From contig CAMDFL010000037.1 in NCBI GenBank assembly GCA_945897475.1, forward strand, positions 1 to 33,483: a DNA stretch of 33,483 nt, read 5' to 3'. The DNA is from Bordetella parapertussis. Lineage in GTDB: Bacteria > Pseudomonadota > Gammaproteobacteria > Burkholderiales > SG8-39. The stretch's first letter is position 1. Each line of letters starts with the position of its first letter. Positions 19,213 through 30,777 of this stretch are shown one piece after another. The translations under genes were made by a program, and so were the position numbers. Below the pieces are notes generated by a model that made no database searches, was not told the origin of the DNA, and was given only the letters and a program-made list of their open reading frames with translations.

Positions 19213-22200
19213 CTAGGCTTTTTCGATGTTGACGAGAAACGCCTTGTACTCCGGCGTCTGCGAATTGGCATCACCCACATACGGCGTCAAGGCGTTGGCG
19301 AGATAACCATTTTGCGTCACCCCCTTGAAGCCCCAGTGGATCGGGATGCCCACGGTGTGCACTTTCTTACCGTTCACCTCCAGCGCGCGGATGCGTTTGG
19401 TGACCACGCAAGCCGCCTTGACCTCGCCGCGGTTGGATTTAACACGCACCATCTGGCCATTCTTGATGCCTTTTTCCTTCGCCAGTTCCTCGCCAATCTC
19501 CACAAACGGCGCGGGTTGAACGATGGCGTTGGAACGTGCGTGCTTAGTCCAGAAGTGCAGATGTTCGGCCAGGCGATAAGTGGTCGCAGCGTAGGGAAAT
19601 TCGGCGGCTTTGCCGAAAGCCTCCATATCGCCCTTATAGACCCGTGCGGTGGGATTGCTGATCGCCTTTGGATTGGTCGGGCACATCAGGTTGACACCTA
19701 CCGGATTCTCGAACGGCTCGTAGTGCTCCGGGAACGGGCCTTCGCTCATGCCGATTGCGTACAACCGCGCCACGCCTTCCGGATTCATGATGAAGGCACC
19801 CACATTTTCAGCAGGCGCTGCATCGGCGCGCATATCGGGAACGTCCGCGCCGGTCCAGCGTGTGCCATCCCATCGCATATAGCTTCGCGAGCTGTCCCAG
19901 GGTTTGCCATCGGCGTCCGCCGAAGCGCGGTTGTAGAGGATGCGGCGGTTGGCTGGCCAGGAAAATCCCCATCCCGAATACACACCCAAGCCCGATGGAT
20001 CGGATGTATCGCGGCGCGCGGTCATATTACCGGCCGGACTCCACGAACCGCAGTAGATCCAGTTGCCGCAACTGGTCGAGCCGTCGGCTTGCAGCAGAGC
20101 GAAAGCGGGCATTTGCGCGCCCGCGGGCACCAGCACCTTTTTGGGATCCTTCGGGTCCAGCACATCAGCCAGCGCCCGCCCGTTGATTTCGCGCAGCACT
20201 TCCTCGGGCGTCGGCATATCGGCCTTGAGATAGGGCCAAGCCATATTGAGTATGGGTTCGGGCAGCTTGCCGCCGTCCTTGCGATACAGATCCCTCAGTT
20301 TCACGAATAGCTTGGCGATGATTTCCGAATCAACCTTGGCCTCACCGGGGGGTTCCACGGCGCGCTCTTTCCAGGCAATCACCCGGCTGGAATTGGTGAA
20401 GGTTCCGGCTTCCTCGGCAAAACAGCTGGTCGGCAGACGGAACACCTCGGTCTGGATTTTCGCTGGATCCACGTCGTTCAATGGACCGTAGTTTTTCCAG
20501 AACTCTGAGGTCTCGGTGGCCAGCGGGTCCAACACCACCAGAAACTTCAATTTGGCGAATGCCTCGCTTTGTTTCTTTTTATTCGGCAACGCCGCCAAAG
20601 GATTGAACCCCTGGCACAGGAATCCACTCATGCGCCCCTGATGCATGCGCTCGAAGATCGCCAGTACGTCGTAGGCGCCATCGCGCTTTGGCAGCCAGTC
20701 GTAGGCAAAATCATTCTCCTTGGTGGCCGCAGCGCCATACCAGGATTTCATCAGGCTGGTGTGCCACTTGGGAAAATTCTGCGTGAAAGTCATCTGATTC
20801 GGACGCAACGGCTTGCCGGTGCGCGCGGCCAAGTAGGCCTCGCGCGTCACATCGCCATCGCCGGGCGCACCCAGATATCCGGGCAGCACCTCCGAGTACA
20901 GCGCCATATCGGTGATGCCCTGCACATTAGCGTGGCCGCGAAGCGCGTTGACGCCGCCGCCGGGCCGGCCCATGTTGCCGAGCAACAACTGGATCATCGC
21001 CATGGTGCGGATGTTCTGCGAACCCACCGAATGCTGAGTCCAACCCAAGGCATACAGGATGGTCATCACCTTGTTGGCCGCCGAGGTCGAGGCGATTTGT
21101 TCAGCCACTTTCAAGAACGCGTCTTTTGGCGTGCCGGTGATTTTACTCACCAGCTCGGGGGTGTAGCGCGAATAGTGTTTTTTCAGTTGCTGAAATACGC
21201 AACGCGGGTTTTGCAGGGTGTCGTCAACCACGACGAAACCATCTTTGCCCAGCTCGTAGCCCCAGGTGGCTTTGTCGTAAGTACGCTTGGCCTCGTCGTA
21301 GCCGCTGAAAAAACCGTTTTCGTAGTTGAAACCCTCTTTGGTGAGGAAGCTGGCATCGGTGTTTATCTTGATGTAATCGTGATGCAGCTTGTCATTAGCA
21401 AATAAATAATTGATTACCCCGCCCAGGAAAGCGATGTCGGTGCCCACGCGCAGCGGCGCGTAGAGATCGGCGACCGCAGCGGAGCGCGTAAACCGCGGGT
21501 CAACAACGACCAGCTTCGCCTTCCTTTGCTGCATTGCCTCGGTCACCCACTTGAAACCACAGGGGTGGGCTTCCGCGGCGTTTCCGCCCATCACGAGAAC
21601 CAGATCGGCATTCTTGATGTCGACCCAGTTGTTGGTCATCGCGCCTCTGCCGAATGTGGGGCCCAAACTGGACACCGTGGGTGCGTGTCATATTCGTGCC
21701 TGAGTATCGAAGGCAACCATTCCCAAGCCGCGCGCGACCTTGACACTTAAATAGCCCGATTCGTTCGAGGCAGCACTCGATGCCAGAAAGCCGACGGTGT
21801 TCCAGCGATTGACGGTTGTGCCCTTGTCGTTCTTTTCGACAAGATTCTTATCGCGATCATCCTTCATATGGCGGGCGATGCGATTCAAGGCATCGTCCCA
21901 GGAGAGGCGCTTCCACTCGTTGGAACCCGGCGCGCGCACCTCCGGGTAACGCAGCCGATTCGGGCTTTGAATCATATCGAGCACGCCCGCGCCCTTGGCG
22001 CATAAGGTTCCGCGATTCACCGGATTATCAGGATCGCCTTCAACGTGAATGATGGAAGTCTTCACGTTTTTCGATTTATCACCCAGGGTGTACATGATCA
22101 TGCCGCAACTCACCGAACAATACGGGCAGGTACTGCGCGTCTCCGTAGTGCGCGCCAGCTTGTAGCCGCGTACATCGTTGGCCATGGCCGATGGGGCATA

Positions 22201-22281
22201 CCCCATCATGGCAAGGCTTGAGCCTCCCATGCCGCCTGCGCAAATTCTAAAAAACTGTCTGCGTGAAACTTTGACGTCCAT
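19213..22281 (-). CDS. Formate dehydrogenase alpha subunit, selenocysteine-containing, Tat-exported (UGA readthrough joins ORFs 21688..22281 and 19213..21675)
   Basis: Tat signal [12 protein letters not shown]; 4Fe-4[11 protein letters not shown]...GTLCAKGAG; reading through UGA gives [38 protein letters not shown], matching the FdnG/FdoG Sec region; same frame on both sides. Confidence 0.95.
21659..21675 (-). promoter_or_regulatory. Putative bacterial SECIS apical hairpin (UCC-AGUUU-GGG)
   Basis: AGU at nt 22-24 counted from U of UGA, the same offset as GGU/AGU in E. coli fdhF/fdnG SECIS as remembered; short flanking stem. Confidence 0.65.
21688..21690 (-). other. In-frame UGA selenocysteine codon (codon 198)
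   Basis: Minus-strand ATA TGA CAC GCA CCC ACG GTG TCC; context identical in register to other FDH Sec sites. Confidence 0.94.
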
Positions 22282-22786: not shown

Positions 22787-23542
22787 ATGAAAGCGGAACA
22801 GATTTTAAAACTGCCTTCGATGCCGGCCGCAAGTCCGAGCTATCCGATGGGTCCCTATCGATTTGTCAATCGCGAATTCCTGATTGTCACCTATGAAACA
22901 GATCATGATCTTTTGCGCCAAGCGGTGCCCGAACCACTGGAGCCAAACAAGGATGGTCATGTGCTCTACGAGTGGATACGCATGCCCGACAGTTCCGGTT
23001 TCGGCGACTACACCGAAAGCGGTGTAGTAATCCCCTGTACGTTCCAAGGCGAGCCGGTCAATTTCACCGCCCAGATGTATCTGGACGACGAGCCTCCTAT
23101 CGCCGGTGGACGAGAAATCTGGGGCTTCCCCAAGAAGTTTGCCAAACCGAAACTGGAAGTCTGCGGGGATACGCTGACCGGCACGCTGCACTACGCCGGC
23201 CAATTGGTCGCGATGGGCACCATGGCCTTCAAGCACCAGCAGTCCCCCGGCGGTGTCGAAGCACAAGCCAAGGGTATGACCAAAACAAGTTGCAATTTAA
23301 AGATCATTCCGGATGTCGATGGCAGTCTCAAAATCTGCCAACTGGTGGCCTATAACCTGAAGGACATCACCGTCAAAGGCAGCTGGATTTCGCCCGCACG
23401 CTTGCAACTGATTCCACACGTCAATGCACCTGCGGCCGATTTGCCGATCAAGAAGATCATCAGCGGCAAACATTTCATCAGCGATCTGACCCTGCCGCAT
23501 GGCCGCGTCATGTTCGACTACATCAAGGACCAAGCCCCTTAA
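22787..23542 (+). CDS. adc: Acetoacetate decarboxylase
   Basis: PMGPYRFVNREFLIVTY; YEWIRMPDSSGFGDYTESG; YLDDEPPIAGGREIWGFPKKFAKPKL with the KK pair matching K115/K116. Confidence 0.93.
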   Translation: MKAEQILKLPSMPAASPSYPMGPYRFVNREFLIVTYETDHDLLRQAVPEPLEPNKDGHVLYEWIRMPDSSGFGDYTESGVVIPCTFQGEPVNFTAQMYLDDEPPIAGGREIWGFPKKFAKPKLEVCGDTLTGTLHYAGQLVAMGTMAFKHQQSPGGVEAQAKGMTKTSCNLKIIPDVDGSLKICQLVAYNLKDITVKGSWISPARLQLIPHVNAPAADLPIKKIISGKHFISDLTLPHGRVMFDYIKDQAP

Positions 23543-23578
23543 GCGGGCGCGAGATGACCCAATAAAAGAAAGCGCAAA

Positions 23579-24322
23579 ATGAAAAAAAGCGAAGTAATGC
23601 AACTGCCGTCGATGCCCCTGCAGAGTCCGACTTATCCGCGCGGACCCTACCGGTTTTTCAACCGCCAGTACATGGTAATCAGCTATAAAACCGATGCCGA
23701 TGCGATCCGCGAGGCGCTGCCCGAACCACTGATGCCAGCTGGCGATACCGTGTCGGTGCAGTGGCTGGATCTGCCTGACGGTGAGGGTTTTGGCGCCTAC
23801 ACCGCCACCGCGCAAATCATCCCATGTACTTTCAAGGGAGAAGCCTGCAATTTTGTGAGCCAGATGTACGTGGATAACACGCCGCCGCTTTCGGGTGGTC
23901 GTGAGATCTGGGGCTATCCGATGAAGCACGGCGATGCCACGCTCAAGGTCATCGGCGACACCTTGACCGGTACCTTGCATTACGCCACCGAGCGCGTCGC
24001 CACCGGAACCATGGTTTTCAAACATGACGCGTTCCGTACCGACTACTCGCACGAGCAAGGCCTGCTGGCACGAACCCAGGTTACTTTGAAATTGATTCCC
24101 GACATCGATGGCACGCCGGCAATTGCACAATTGGTAGCGGTCAAGTTCGAGAATATCTCGCTCAAAGGCGCCTGGGCCGGTCGAGCCAGCCTGGAACTGG
24201 TACCCGCAGTGAACTGCCCCTTGTCGGACCTGCCGGTGCGCCAAGTCTCAGGCGGACTGCATATGGTGACCGACATGACACTGCCCTACGGCAAGGTGAT
24301 ACACGACTACCTGGCCAAATAG
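23579..24322 (+). CDS. Acetoacetate decarboxylase-like paralogue with substituted catalytic residues
   Basis: Full-length homology to the preceding gene (SPTYPRGPYRFFNRQYMVISY, YVDNTPPLSGGREIWGYPMKHG, GTLHYATERVATGTMVFKHD). Confidence 0.92.
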   Translation: MKKSEVMQLPSMPLQSPTYPRGPYRFFNRQYMVISYKTDADAIREALPEPLMPAGDTVSVQWLDLPDGEGFGAYTATAQIIPCTFKGEACNFVSQMYVDNTPPLSGGREIWGYPMKHGDATLKVIGDTLTGTLHYATERVATGTMVFKHDAFRTDYSHEQGLLARTQVTLKLIPDIDGTPAIAQLVAVKFENISLKGAWAGRASLELVPAVNCPLSDLPVRQVSGGLHMVTDMTLPYGKVIHDYLAK

Positions 24323-24360: not shown

Positions 24361-24373
24361 GCCAAAAAAAAAT

Positions 24374-24413
24374 GGGGCGGATGGCTCAGTTTCTTGACTG
24401 AGCAATTCGCCCC
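24374..24413. terminator. Bidirectional rho-independent terminator (GGGGCG..GCTCAGT-ttcttg-ACTGAGC..CGCCCC)
   Basis: Two-part perfect stem; followed by GTTTT on the plus strand and preceded by A9 (T-run on the minus strand); lies between convergent genes. Confidence 0.8.
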
Positions 24414-24419
24414 GTTTTC

Positions 24420-24590
24420 GTTTCAATCAATCGCTTTGGTTTCGACCTGCTGATTTCGTTTCAGTCGACCAATGTAGTCTCGGCCGGCTGATTTGGTTTC
24501 AGTCGGCTGATTTGGTTTCAGTCGGCCGATCTCGTTCCCGCCGGTTGATCTTGTTTCGACCGCCCGACTTCGGTTCGCTCCTTCTATTCC
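24420..24590. repeat. Degenerate 19-bp tandem repeat, about 8-9 units, consensus GTTTCAGTCGGCTGATTTG
   Basis: Manual 19-nt register with no indels: 24420, 24439, 24458, 24477, 24496, 24515, 24534, 24553, 24572. Confidence 0.85.
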
Positions 24591-24594
24591 CCGC

Positions 24595-25659
24595 CTAAAG
24601 GAACTCTTTCTTCAAGTCCACGGTAGAGCGCACGCCAAGGTGCTCAAAATTGTGCGTGAGCCACTCTCCGGCCAATGCACGACCGCGATCGCGCAAGGTT
24701 GTCAGGAATTTCCAGTCGCTGCACATCTTGCTTTCGGCCGACATGTCGGATAGCGCGTTATCGGCGCGCACCGAATGGATCAAAACATACTTGAATTTAT
24801 CCTTGTGCTCGTCCTTGATCATGCCGTTGTCGAGCAACTGCTGCACGAAGTAGACCGAGCGTAATTCCTTGATCAACGAAGAATTAAAGGTGATTTCGTT
24901 GAGCCGATTGTGAATATCGGCCGACGTGGTGGGAAGCCCCGGTCTTTCAATCGGGTTGATATGCAGAATCACCACGTCGCGCGAATCGGTATGGTAGAAC
25001 AGGGGGTAGAGAACAGGATTACCCATGTAACCGCCGTCCCAGTAATGCTCGCCATTGATTTCGACCGCCTGAAACACCTGCGGCAGGCAAGCGGAAGCCA
25101 AAACAACATCGCAAGTGACTTCACTGGTATTGAATATTTTCACCTTACCGGTGCGTACATTGGTTGCGCAGATGAACAGCTTTGTCCCCTGGCTTCTCTC
25201 GAGCGCCTCGAAATCAACCTGTTTCTCCAGCACCTCTTTCAAGGGGTTGTAATTCATCGGATTCATCTGATAGGGCGACATGGTCCCCATGAGCGTTTTC
25301 ATCAGACCCTGCATGGGGCTTTCCTTGGGTAACACTTCGGTGTCCCAAGGCATGCGTGGCGGCTTGAATTTCGACCCAGCATCCGCGATTGCCTTCCAGA
25401 AGTTATGCAAGGCCTCGCGTGCACCGTCATTGCCGCGCAGTTTGCCGTAGGCGTACACCACGGCGTTCATCGACCCAGCACTCGTGCCAGAGACGCCTTC
25501 GATCTCGATGCGCCCATCTTCGAGAAATTTGTCCATCACACCCCAGCCAAATGCGCCGTGGGATCCCCCGCCTTGCAAGGCCAGATTAATGGTCTTCATT
25601 TTCGTATCTTTAGTGACCTGAGGATCGGATATTTCCGATTGTCTTGTTTTAGTTGCCAT
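24595..25659 (-). CDS. Patatin-like phospholipase family protein
   Basis: NLALQGGGSHGAFGWGV, GVSGTSAGSMNA (GxSxG), YWDGGYMGNPVLYP (DGG); internal start MKTINLALQ possible. Confidence 0.92.
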   Translation of the reverse strand: MATKTRQSEISDPQVTKDTKMKTINLALQGGGSHGAFGWGVMDKFLEDGRIEIEGVSGTSAGSMNAVVYAYGKLRGNDGAREALHNFWKAIADAGSKFKPPRMPWDTEVLPKESPMQGLMKTLMGTMSPYQMNPMNYNPLKEVLEKQVDFEALERSQGTKLFICATNVRTGKVKIFNTSEVTCDVVLASACLPQVFQAVEINGEHYWDGGYMGNPVLYPLFYHTDSRDVVILHINPIERPGLPTTSADIHNRLNEITFNSSLIKELRSVYFVQQLLDNGMIKDEHKDKFKYVLIHSVRADNALSDMSAESKMCSDWKFLTTLRDRGRALAGEWLTHNFEHLGVRSTVDLKKEFL

Positions 25660-25702: not shown

Positions 25703-25810
25703 CGACCTAATAAGTGTCAGACCGATCTAATAAGTCTCAGATCGGTCTAATAAGTGTCAGATCGATCTAAAAAGTGGCAGATCGACCTAACAAGTGTCAG
25801 ATCGACCTAA
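25703..25810. repeat. 20-bp tandem repeat, 5 units plus partial, consensus CGAYCTAATAAGTGTCAGAT
   Basis: Units at 25703, 25723, 25743, 25763, 25783, with partial at 25803, no indels. Confidence 0.92.
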
Positions 25811-26589
25811 TGCGCTGTCCAGCCGCCTTCGACCATAATATTGGTACCGGTAATCGACGCCGCCGAATCGCTGCAAAGGAATATGGCGGTACCCGCAATT
25901 TCCTCGACCGTGACGAATTTCTTGGTCGGCTGCGCGGCCAGCAGCACATCGCGCTTGACCTGCTCCTCGGTAATGCCGCGTGCTTTGGCGGTATCCGGAA
26001 TCTGCGCCTCGACCAGCGGCGTCAAAACGTATCCAGGGCAAATCGCGTTCACGGTAATGCCATGCTCTGCGACTTCCAGGGCGATGGTCTTGCTGAAACC
26101 CATGATGCCGTGTTTGGAGGCGACATAAGCTGATTTGTATGCCGATGCCACCATCGCATGCGCCGAGGCGACATTGATAATGCGACCCCATTTTTTGGAT
26201 TTCATATAGGGCACCGCTATCCGCGTGGTGTGAAATGCCGAGGAGAGATTGATCGCGATGATCGCATCCCACTTGGCAAGCGGAAACTCCTCAACCGGCG
26301 CAACGTGCTGAATACCGGCGTTATTGACGAGGATGTCCACTCCACCGAGGTCGGCTTGGGCCTTCTTCATCATCGCTTCAATTGAAGCTGGTTTGCTCAT
26401 GTCCGCGCCATCGTACAAAACCTTGACGCCATACTTGGAGGCAAGGCCTGCGCGCAGCTTTTCGATTTCCGCCGCGTCGCCGAAGCCGTTGAGCACCAGG
26501 TTCACACCTTCTTTGGCAAATCCTTCGGCAATTCCCAGGCCAATACCGCTGGTGGACCCCGTTATTAATGCATTTTTACCTTTAAGCAT
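25807..26589 (-). CDS. bdhA: 3-hydroxybutyrate dehydrogenase (SDR family)
   Basis: GSTSGIGLGIAEGFA, NNAGIQHVAPVEEFPLAKWDAIIAINLSSAFHTTRIAVPYMK, YVASKHG, PGYVLTPLVEAQI. Confidence 0.94.
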   Translation of the reverse strand: MLKGKNALITGSTSGIGLGIAEGFAKEGVNLVLNGFGDAAEIEKLRAGLASKYGVKVLYDGADMSKPASIEAMMKKAQADLGGVDILVNNAGIQHVAPVEEFPLAKWDAIIAINLSSAFHTTRIAVPYMKSKKWGRIINVASAHAMVASAYKSAYVASKHGIMGFSKTIALEVAEHGITVNAICPGYVLTPLVEAQIPDTAKARGITEEQVKRDVLLAAQPTKKFVTVEEIAGTAIFLCSDSAASITGTNIMVEGGWTAH

Positions 26590-26737: not shown

Positions 26738-27283
26738 CTATTTCTTGCTAGCTATATCGGTCACCGATCCGGTCATTTTTTCTGCTGCGGCGCCACCCTG
26801 CTTGGAATTGGCACTGGCAATATTAGCCATCTGGCTTGCTACCGTGGTAATACTCTCAAACGCCTTGGTGGTCTGGTCCAGCATGTTTTTCATAGTATTG
26901 GCCATGACATCCGAGCCTGCCATTTTTGATTTACCGAGGGAGGCCATCGCCGTTTTGGAGAACTGCTGCTGGTTCGCCTGCATCACCTTTGTGACGTCCT
27001 TTTGCATGGTCGAGACAAGGTCATGCAATTTACGCCAGTATTCGATCATGCCCTCAGGCTTCATCATCTGCTCGCGCACACGGCCCAGGTCGGACATATC
27101 CTTGGAGGATGCCAAGGTACTTGACAGGTCAGCGGTGCTCGAAAATCCTGCTTGCGCCGTGGATTTGTTGAGTTCGGCGATACGCTGCATCCCCTCGAAG
27201 GACATGCGGGTAATGGTAATCATCATTTCCGCGGTGGCCTGCTGCGAAGTGGCCAACTGCTCTATTATTTCTGGCTTATTCAT
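26738..27283 (-). CDS. Phasin-like granule-associated protein
   Basis: Met/Ala/Gln/Lys-rich, likely helical 181-aa protein (QQATAEMMITITRMSFEGMQRIAELNKSTAQAGFSST...), next to bdhA. Confidence 0.7.
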   Translation of the reverse strand: MNKPEIIEQLATSQQATAEMMITITRMSFEGMQRIAELNKSTAQAGFSSTADLSSTLASSKDMSDLGRVREQMMKPEGMIEYWRKLHDLVSTMQKDVTKVMQANQQQFSKTAMASLGKSKMAGSDVMANTMKNMLDQTTKAFESITTVASQMANIASANSKQGGAAAEKMTGSVTDIASKK

Positions 27284-28693: not shown

Positions 28694-29734
28694 TTATTCG
28701 GCCTTGATGTCAGCCGCCTTGACAACGCGCGCCCATTTCTCGGTTTCCTGGCGGATGAACGTGGCAAAGGCGTCGCTCGATCCACCGATGGCTTGCAGTT
28801 CCTGCGAGGCAAACTGCTTCCTGACATCAGGCATGGCAAGCACCCGCGCTGCTTCCTGATTGAGGCGCAAAACGATGGCGGGCGGCGTTGCCCCAGGCGC
28901 ATTCAGCCCGAACCACAGGCCAGCATCGAAGCCTGCCACGCCGCTTGATGCAAGCGTGGGCACCCCGGGTAGCGACGCAAGCGGATCGCGACCGATTGAG
29001 CCCAGTGCAATCAGCTTGCCCGCCTTGATCGGACCGATAACCGATGCCGCAGGCGTGAACAGCAGCTTGATATGCCCGGCCATCAGATCGATCTGCGCCT
29101 GGCCACTGCCTTTGTAGGGCACGTGGGCCAGCTTTACACCCGTAGCCAAATTGAACAACTCGCCATAGAGATGAGTAACAGTTCCGGTCCCCGCCGACGC
29201 ATACGAGATGCCGCCTGCCTTGGTTTTCGCCTGCGCAATCAGCTCGCGCACGTTGGGTGGCGCCGAAGGATGCGCGGCCAGCAGGCCTGGCGTTTCCGCT
29301 AGGAGCGCGACCGCCGCGAGATCCTTCTGAAAATCGAATGGCACTTTGAACAGGCTGGGATTGATGCTGTTTGCGATGGTTGAGAGAAGCAGTGTGTAGC
29401 CGTCGCCCGGCGCGCGCGCCACCGCCTCGGCGGCAATGCTGCTGCCCGCGCCGGCGCGATTCTCCACCAGCACCTGCTGGCCAATGGTTTCCGACATTCT
29501 GCTGGCGAGTTGACGCGCGACGATGTCGGCGGTGCTGGCCGCGGGAAAGCCCACCAGGATACGCAAGGGCTTGTTGGGAAAATCCGTTTGCGCATGGAGC
29601 GTGAATGGCATCGCCAATGCAGCACACGCGAAAATTCTCCATGATGACGAACGCCGATGCACCGCTAATGCCCCAGATCCAATACCACTAATGCAATTTA
29701 AATCGGCCATTGGCCCTCGCTGATTGGACTTCAC
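28694..29734 (-). CDS. Bug/TctC-family solute-binding protein
   Basis: FPNKPLRILVGFPAASTADIVARQLASRMSETIGQQVLVENRAGAGSSIAAEAVARAPGDGYTLL. Confidence 0.93.
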   Translation of the reverse strand: MKSNQRGPMADLNCISGIGSGALAVHRRSSSWRIFACAALAMPFTLHAQTDFPNKPLRILVGFPAASTADIVARQLASRMSETIGQQVLVENRAGAGSSIAAEAVARAPGDGYTLLLSTIANSINPSLFKVPFDFQKDLAAVALLAETPGLLAAHPSAPPNVRELIAQAKTKAGGISYASAGTGTVTHLYGELFNLATGVKLAHVPYKGSGQAQIDLMAGHIKLLFTPAASVIGPIKAGKLIALGSIGRDPLASLPGVPTLASSGVAGFDAGLWFGLNAPGATPPAIVLRLNQEAARVLAMPDVRKQFASQELQAIGGSSDAFATFIRQETEKWARVVKAADIKAE

Positions 29735-30777
29735 TCTGGTTTAATTCCGGCATTTTTAACAACGTCTCGCCACTTGAGATGGTCCGACACGATGCGTTTC
29801 TGAAACTGTTCAACCGACTCTCGCATCGGCAGAATGCCCGCGCCTATGAGTTGCTCCGCCGCCTTGGGATTCTCGAAGGCCTGGCCGATGTGATTATTGA
29901 GTAGCGCGACGATTTCACGCGGAGTGGCAGCGGGGGCCAGCACGCCGAACCAGTTGGTCACCTCGTATTGAGGAAGGCCCGCCTCGGCAAAAGTCGGCAC
30001 ATTGGGCAGCGCCGCGATGCGCTTGGGTGCCGCCACCGCAAGCACGCGCACGGTGCCTGCCGCCAACTGCGCACGCACCGAACCAACACCGAGCAGGGAA
30101 ACCTGGATACGACCGGCAGCAAGATCGACACCCGCCGGCGCCGCGCCCTTGTAGGGCACATGCACCATTTTCACCCCAGTCAGAAACGACAACAATTCCG
30201 CGGCAAGGTGCGGCATGGTGGCCTGTCCGGCCGAGCCGTAATTGATCGCCCCTTGATTGGCTCGCCCATATTCAATGAATTCCTTGAGCGTTTTAACAGG
30301 CAGAGTGTTCGGAATAGCGACCACGCTGGGCACCTCGGCCACGGCGGCAACGCCCACCAGATCCTTCAAGGGATCGTAGGGAAGGTCCTTGGTGACCCAG
30401 GGCGCGATCGACGCATTGCCAACATTGACGATGACCAGCGTATAGCCGTCCGGTGCGGACTTTGCGGTGTAGTGAACCGCCGTGCTGCCACCGGCGCCTG
30501 GGCGGTTTTCCACGATCATCGGCTGACCAATGGTGCGCAGAATGTTCTCCGACATGATGCGCGTCATGATATCGGTGATGCCGCCGGCGGCCGCGGTGAC
30601 CACCATGCGGATGGGTTTCACCGGATAGGATTGAGCGATGCCTGGTGTGGCCACCGCCGACAAGGCGATCGCGGCAACTGCGCCGCACACCATCGTTTGT
30701 CTGCTTGACTTGATCACTTGTCTGCTTGACTTGATCACTTGTCTGTTTGACTTCATAGCTGGTCCGTTCTGCTTCAT
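29731..30777 (-). CDS. Bug/TctC-family solute-binding protein
   Basis: YPVKPIRMVVTAAAGGITDIMTRIMSENILRTIGQPMIVENRPGAGGSTAVHYTAKSAPDGYTLV; 4-nt overlap with the next TctC gene. Confidence 0.93.
   Translation of the reverse strand: MKQNGPAMKSNRQVIKSSRQVIKSSRQTMVCGAVAAIALSAVATPGIAQSYPVKPIRMVVTAAAGGITDIMTRIMSENILRTIGQPMIVENRPGAGGSTAVHYTAKSAPDGYTLVIVNVGNASIAPWVTKDLPYDPLKDLVGVAAVAEVPSVVAIPNTLPVKTLKEFIEYGRANQGAINYGSAGQATMPHLAAELLSFLTGVKMVHVPYKGAAPAGVDLAAGRIQVSLLGVGSVRAQLAAGTVRVLAVAAPKRIAALPNVPTFAEAGLPQYEVTNWFGVLAPAATPREIVALLNNHIGQAFENPKAAEQLIGAGILPMRESVEQFQKRIVSDHLKWRDVVKNAGIKPE
30697..30759. repeat. 21-bp in-frame tandem repeat (3 units) in the N-terminal coding part of the TctC gene
   Basis: TTGTCTGCTTGACTTGATCAC at 30697 and 30718, variant at 30739; encodes KSNRQVIKSSRQVIKSSRQ. 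Confidence 0.9.

Follow-up and report, generated by a model that had tools for sequence, protein, structure and literature searches.

The second of two adjacent acetoacetate decarboxylase (ADC) family genes in a 33,483-nt stretch of DNA (the window) encodes a paralogue, called ADCv here, that has lost the Schiff-base lysine and both active-site glutamates. These losses are fixed among its homologues, the gene is under selection, and it is strictly associated with a canonical ADC, which two relatives retain without it. From sequence comparisons, ADCv appears to be an anciently duplicated ADC paralogue maintained by purifying selection, and it almost certainly functions, in a role other than that of the enzyme. 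ADC is a textbook example of catalysis through a Schiff-base lysine of perturbed pKa. ADCv offers a natural experiment on the capacity of the ADC pocket without that lysine and with both glutamates neutral, selected strictly beside the live enzyme.

The ADCv gene encodes a complete protein of 247 aa, which is full length for the ADC family. Its setting is ketone-body and polyhydroxybutyrate metabolism: genes for 3-hydroxybutyrate dehydrogenase (BDH), a phasin and a patatin-like protein adjoin the pair, and a class I PHA synthase is present in the genome. The features of the locus, with catalytic residues in C. acetobutylicum numbering, are as follows.

22787..23542, plus strand: canonical acetoacetate decarboxylase, R/E/E/K/K, 251 aa (NF002614, E 3e-106)
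23543..23578, plus strand: intergenic gap of 36 nt between the ADC and ADCv genes (in relatives usually 3-26 nt or an overlap)
23579..24322, plus strand: ADCv, ADC-family paralogue without the Schiff-base lysine, signature R29/Q61/A76/M115/K116, 247 aa (PF06314, E 3.5e-63)
23759..23761, plus strand: codon CAG for Q61 (E61 in ADC), read directly
23804..23806, plus strand: codon GCC for A76 (E76 in ADC), read directly
23921..23923, plus strand: codon ATG for M115 (Schiff-base K115 in ADC), read directly
24369..24418, plus strand: probable terminator, a strong hairpin followed by a U-rich tail (-35 kcal/mol, z -7.4)
24595..25659, minus strand: patatin-like phospholipase, often a neighbour of ADC whether ADCv is present or not (family profile match and neighbourhood comparison)
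25807..26589, minus strand: BDH, which produces the ADC substrate acetoacetate (TIGR01963, 378 bits, cut-off 307)
26738..27283, minus strand: phasin, a polyhydroxybutyrate granule protein (family profile match)

The hairpin probably ends the adc-adcv unit ahead of the convergent patatin gene, and a short tandem repeat array (24435-24576; 19/57-nt period, unit near GCTGATTTGGTTTCAGTCG) lies between the two. A third, distant ADC-family gene is found on a separate contig of the same genome. Elsewhere in the window, the formate dehydrogenase alpha subunit gene (19213-22281, minus strand) has one in-frame TGA at codon 198 and likely encodes a selenoprotein, which simple ORF calling renders as two separate frames, while two adjoining genes at 28694-30777 (minus strand) resemble, by eye from their translations, Bug-type tripartite tricarboxylate receptor proteins. 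No RNA family scored above the Rfam gathering cut-offs anywhere in the window.

Alignment of ADCv to the C. acetobutylicum structure 3BH2 using phmmer (E 5e-59) places Gln at position 61, Ala at 76 and Met at 115, with R29 and K116 kept, whereas the upstream ADC has R/E/E/K/K in the equivalent columns, its own numbering being one residue higher. Together with the codons, this result bears out a first-pass annotation of the window, made from the letters alone, in which E61Q, E76A and K115M were proposed for the second protein with R29 and K116 retained, and all five catalytic residues for the first. Its coordinates, frame and stop for the ADCv gene, including the ATG that replaces the lysine codon, were likewise correct. 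No other lysine can take the K115 place: throughout the alignment, the GREIWGYP-M-K motif pairs with GRE(L/I)..(Y/F)P-K-K, and no row needs a gap. Substitutions at K115 are given as inactivating ADC (Highbarger 1996, cited in PMC4520260), and with this residue gone we regard it as close to certain, on sequence grounds, that ADCv is without Schiff-base chemistry. On the same cited work, the earlier description of the protein as non-decarboxylating holds for the Schiff-base route. ADCv is a member of the ADC sequence family that is not expected to be an acetoacetate decarboxylase.

ADCv scores 213.7 bits against PF06314 (cut-off 29.8) and 296.7 bits against NF002614 (cut-off 150). The latter model carries the NCBIfam name acetoacetate decarboxylase and is matched by all 28 of the ADCv members sampled, which reveals a systematic misannotation. 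An AlphaFold2 model built from a 28-row alignment (pLDDT 79.6) has the ADC fold. Its best PDB matches in Foldseek were the ADC structures 3BGT, 3C8W and 3BH2 (TM 0.85-0.86), with the aldolase-dehydratase/MppR group next, and none of the solved relatives listed by Foldseek is described by its title as lacking the lysine. At E<=0.001 only PF06314 was matched, with no match to PF09844 (DUF2071), and a score of 22.3 bits against the MppR-type model TIGR04460 (cut-off 380) places ADCv outside that group.

With ADCv as the sole query, 46 loci were recovered from 85,000 species genomes. When the proteins from these and from later loci, spanning Alpha- and Betaproteobacteria, were aligned, R29, Q61, A76, M115 and K116 were present in 47/47 distinct ADCv sequences, such that every member lacks the Lys115, Glu61 and Glu76 of the enzyme and every member keeps its Arg29 and Lys116. 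The canonical neighbours read R/E/E/K/K with a sole exception, the ADC at L026:5237-6001, which has K115N plus odd F113V and V140G changes at conserved sites and is either a decayed ADC or the product of draft-assembly errors. Because EIWGYPMK was among the search words, M115 was favoured in this locus set; Q61 and A76 lay outside the search patterns. The ascertainment worry was removed, for the taxa sampled, by four motif-free profile scans of 399 phylum, 398 order, 401 Sphingomonadales and 386 class genomes (the samples overlap slightly). These found ADCv in 15 genomes including the window's own, all reading R-Q-A-M-K, and intermediates between the ADC and ADCv signatures were seen in none of the four. 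The other ADCs in these scans had only R/E/E/K/(K or R), except for one reading G/E/E/K/R (L088), whose garbled N-terminus is probably a frameshift in a draft genome. A Methylobacterium bullatum plasmid match (52.6% identity) was considered as a further ADCv and rejected, as it is a canonical YEW-type ADC with K115.

ADCv sequences form a single clade (support 100/100) inside the YEW-type ADCs. Their median dN/dS is about 0.22, compared with 0.14 for the paired ADCs, and the distance matrices of the two proteins are strongly correlated (Mantel r 0.86, 0/999 permutations as high). To locate the changes, 82 near-invariant positions were defined by conservation of at least 95% across 69 ADCs other than ADCv, and a replacement was counted if it was fixed in at least 90% of ADCv. 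Nine positions qualified: E61Q, M65L, S68G, E76A, L98V, D100N, I104L, F113Y and K115M. All nine lie within residues 61-118, a span that holds 29 of the 82 positions and contains the catalytic and several pocket residues, and they include three of the five catalytic sites. The other 73 positions show no fixed replacement in ADCv. Among the pocket residues named in PMC4520260 are E76, L98, Y113 and K115; three others on that list, F26, Y74 and M96, are invariant in ADCv. The earlier view that the gene looks selected rather than decayed is therefore strongly supported by the fixed signature, the low dN/dS, the confinement of change to the pocket region and the constant pairing with ADC.

This pairing is strict wherever it could be checked. 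Canonical ADC was found beside ADCv in 45 of the 46 loci from the large scan, the remaining one (L041) starting at a contig end, and in 15/15 genomes of the motif-free scans. The orthologues sought by the first-pass annotation, sharing the Q/A/M residues and co-occurring with canonical adc, thus exist, and the ADC adjoins in all checkable loci. The ADC gene is usually upstream, and most of the 42 distinct same-strand pairs are separated by 3-26 nt; three pairs overlap, and in four the spacing is wider (36-91 nt). In one genome (L045/L116), which carries the most divergent ADCv lineage, the two genes are convergent and not tandem, yet still adjacent. Sphingomonad pairs nest in a mainly betaproteobacterial range in both the ADC and the ADCv subtrees, and the pair therefore appears to have been transferred between classes together. 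A patatin-like gene and a BDH gene are near most of the loci (two patatin-like genes at L014, L016 and L017) and are not near L021, L043, L044 and L045, which marks the two genes, and not the wider neighbourhood, as the conserved unit. Patatin and BDH were considered as specific ADCv partners and rejected: both genes also occur beside ADC where ADCv is absent, and some ADC-ADCv loci lack them. Gene fusion was likewise rejected as proof of a complex, since the long open frames at some loci overlap the neighbour in another frame and do not represent fusions.

The association does not hold in the opposite direction. Most YEW-type ADCs encountered in the phylum by the motif-free scans are solo. 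Moreover, in two relatives of L024, L031 and L034, namely G460:C22 (L112) and G572:C17 (L113), ADCv is absent while ADC is intact and synteny is kept. In G460 both flanks align to ADCv-bearing relatives; in G572, whose contig stops within the ADC gene, the comparison covers the downstream flank and ADC only. The two ADCs have about 90% DNA identity to those of their relatives, with the protein altered at few positions, and they nest in the paired clade, which makes loss of ADCv the likelier direction. Retention of ADC thus does not need ADCv, and ADCv looks like an accessory that depends on ADC as opposed to an obligate half-enzyme. G460 and G572 represent a natural adcv deletion for comparing acetone physiology.

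The reading we favour, with confidence a little short of even, is that ADCv is a ligand-binding pseudoenzyme, without Schiff-base chemistry, that modulates ADC, probably by assembling with it into mixed oligomers. ADCv would be co-produced with canonical ADC and act as its accessory. Since K115M and E61Q are near-isosteric neutral swaps and E76A adds space, the pocket would stay open but chemically silenced, with R29 and K116 leaving it positive; the near-isosteric neutralisations suggest that it has been kept in shape and is used. Most likely it would bind acetoacetate, 3-hydroxybutyrate or a similar carboxylate unreacted, and ADCv may in this way tune the activity or stability of ADC inside mixed ADC-fold oligomers. 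A non-catalytic, ligand-binding companion that modulates ADC, most simply from within mixed oligomers, would fit a protein that depends strictly on ADC, has kept the scaffold almost unchanged and has a positive but silent pocket.

That the genes lie in tandem and are apparently transferred together would be expected no less of a separate enzyme acting in the same pathway than of an ADC partner. Such an enzyme would act on a related beta-keto or beta-hydroxy acid without forming a Schiff base: R29 and K116 would hold the carboxylate, and the chemistry would fall to Q61, Y113 or other polar residues. We consider this possible but unlikely. It would fit a pocket that has been remodelled to one fixed alternative in all 47 proteins and not emptied at random, with Y113, Q61 and N100 at or near fixation across the clade. 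On the other hand, the pocket shows no sign of a new acid, base or nucleophile specific to the clade, since E61Q, E76A, K115M and D100N all remove or neutralise charge, and ADCv was never found without ADC, whereas an independent enzyme would sometimes be expected to occur alone. More doubtful is a free-standing binding protein that stores or senses acetoacetate, 3-hydroxybutyrate or acetone without touching ADC. A positively charged and chemically silent pocket would be appropriate for this role, as would the ketone-body and polyhydroxybutyrate neighbourhood, but ADCv is without a fused output domain, no regulator consistently adjoins the pair in the loci compared, and the strict dependence is on ADC and not on BDH or patatin.

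We think it very improbable that the two proteins are obligate partners in a hetero-oligomeric decarboxylase, with ADC inactive on its own. Although the tight pairing and mirrored trees would be expected of such a complex, and precedents exist for a required dead paralogue (PMC5201418, PMC3663545), ADCv is cleanly absent in G460 and G572 beside an intact and almost unchanged ADC, and many solo ADCs occur in the same wider clade. The two relatives thus oppose the hetero-oligomer partner of the first-pass annotation in its obligate form; the accessory or regulatory form is not opposed by them. Finally, a decaying duplicate, a sequencing or assembly artefact or a misaligned lysine has nothing in its favour other than the origin of the window in a draft assembly of 296 contigs, and is refuted by the conservation of ADCv, whose signature is fixed under purifying selection and in a gapless alignment across 47 distinct proteins from independent assemblies, including the isolates Sphingomonas ursincola KR-99, S. 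natans and Sandarakinorhabdus limnophila DSM 17366.

With two genes, the idea that a paired pseudoenzyme regulates the formation of acetone from acetoacetate becomes directly testable. We see about an even chance that a new ADC-fold protein class is represented here. One form of it would be a hetero-oligomeric acetoacetate decarboxylase, the first of its kind, equipped with a dedicated subunit that is non-catalytic and senses ligand; the other would be an enzyme free of Schiff-base chemistry that arose by concerted K115M/E61Q/E76A exchange and travels with ADC as a two-gene unit. A literature search, mostly outside subscription journals, found no work joining ADC with the term pseudoenzyme or treating the ADCv subfamily; in the literature searched, the only ADC-like proteins recorded as lacking K115 belonged to the distant DUF2071 family (PMC4520260).

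Compared with ADC itself (PF06314/NF002614; C. acetobutylicum Adc 3BH2, 3BGT/3BH3; Legionella 3C8W), ADCv shares family, length and fold, as well as R29, K116, the GREIWG-Y-P motif and an NCBIfam score far above cut-off. Every ADCv nevertheless differs at K115 (Met), E61 (Gln) and E76 (Ala), and six more near-invariant positions, from 65 to 113, are altered. Proteins of the DUF2071 family (PF09844, in the ADC-like clan) have an ADC-like fold and are described as being without Lys115 but with E76 kept (PMC4520260); ADCv likewise lacks the lysine, but has A76. The fold is also shared with MppR, the S. bingchenggensis aldolase-dehydratase and Swit_4259 (TM 0.64-0.77), though identity to ADCv is 17-21% and the TIGR04460 score is far under cut-off. 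Furthermore, the title of 4ZBT describes a Schiff base between the S. bingchenggensis enzyme and pyruvate, whereas ADCv has no lysine there. A parallel in organisation is provided by the trypanosomatid AdoMetDC prozyme and deoxyhypusine synthase paralogue, dead proteins that accompany live enzymes and without which those enzymes do not reach full activity (PMC5201418, PMC3663545). ADCv, too, would be a dead paralogue accompanying a live enzyme, although the folds are unrelated. In contrast to the need for the partner in those systems, G460 and G572 have kept ADC in the absence of ADCv.
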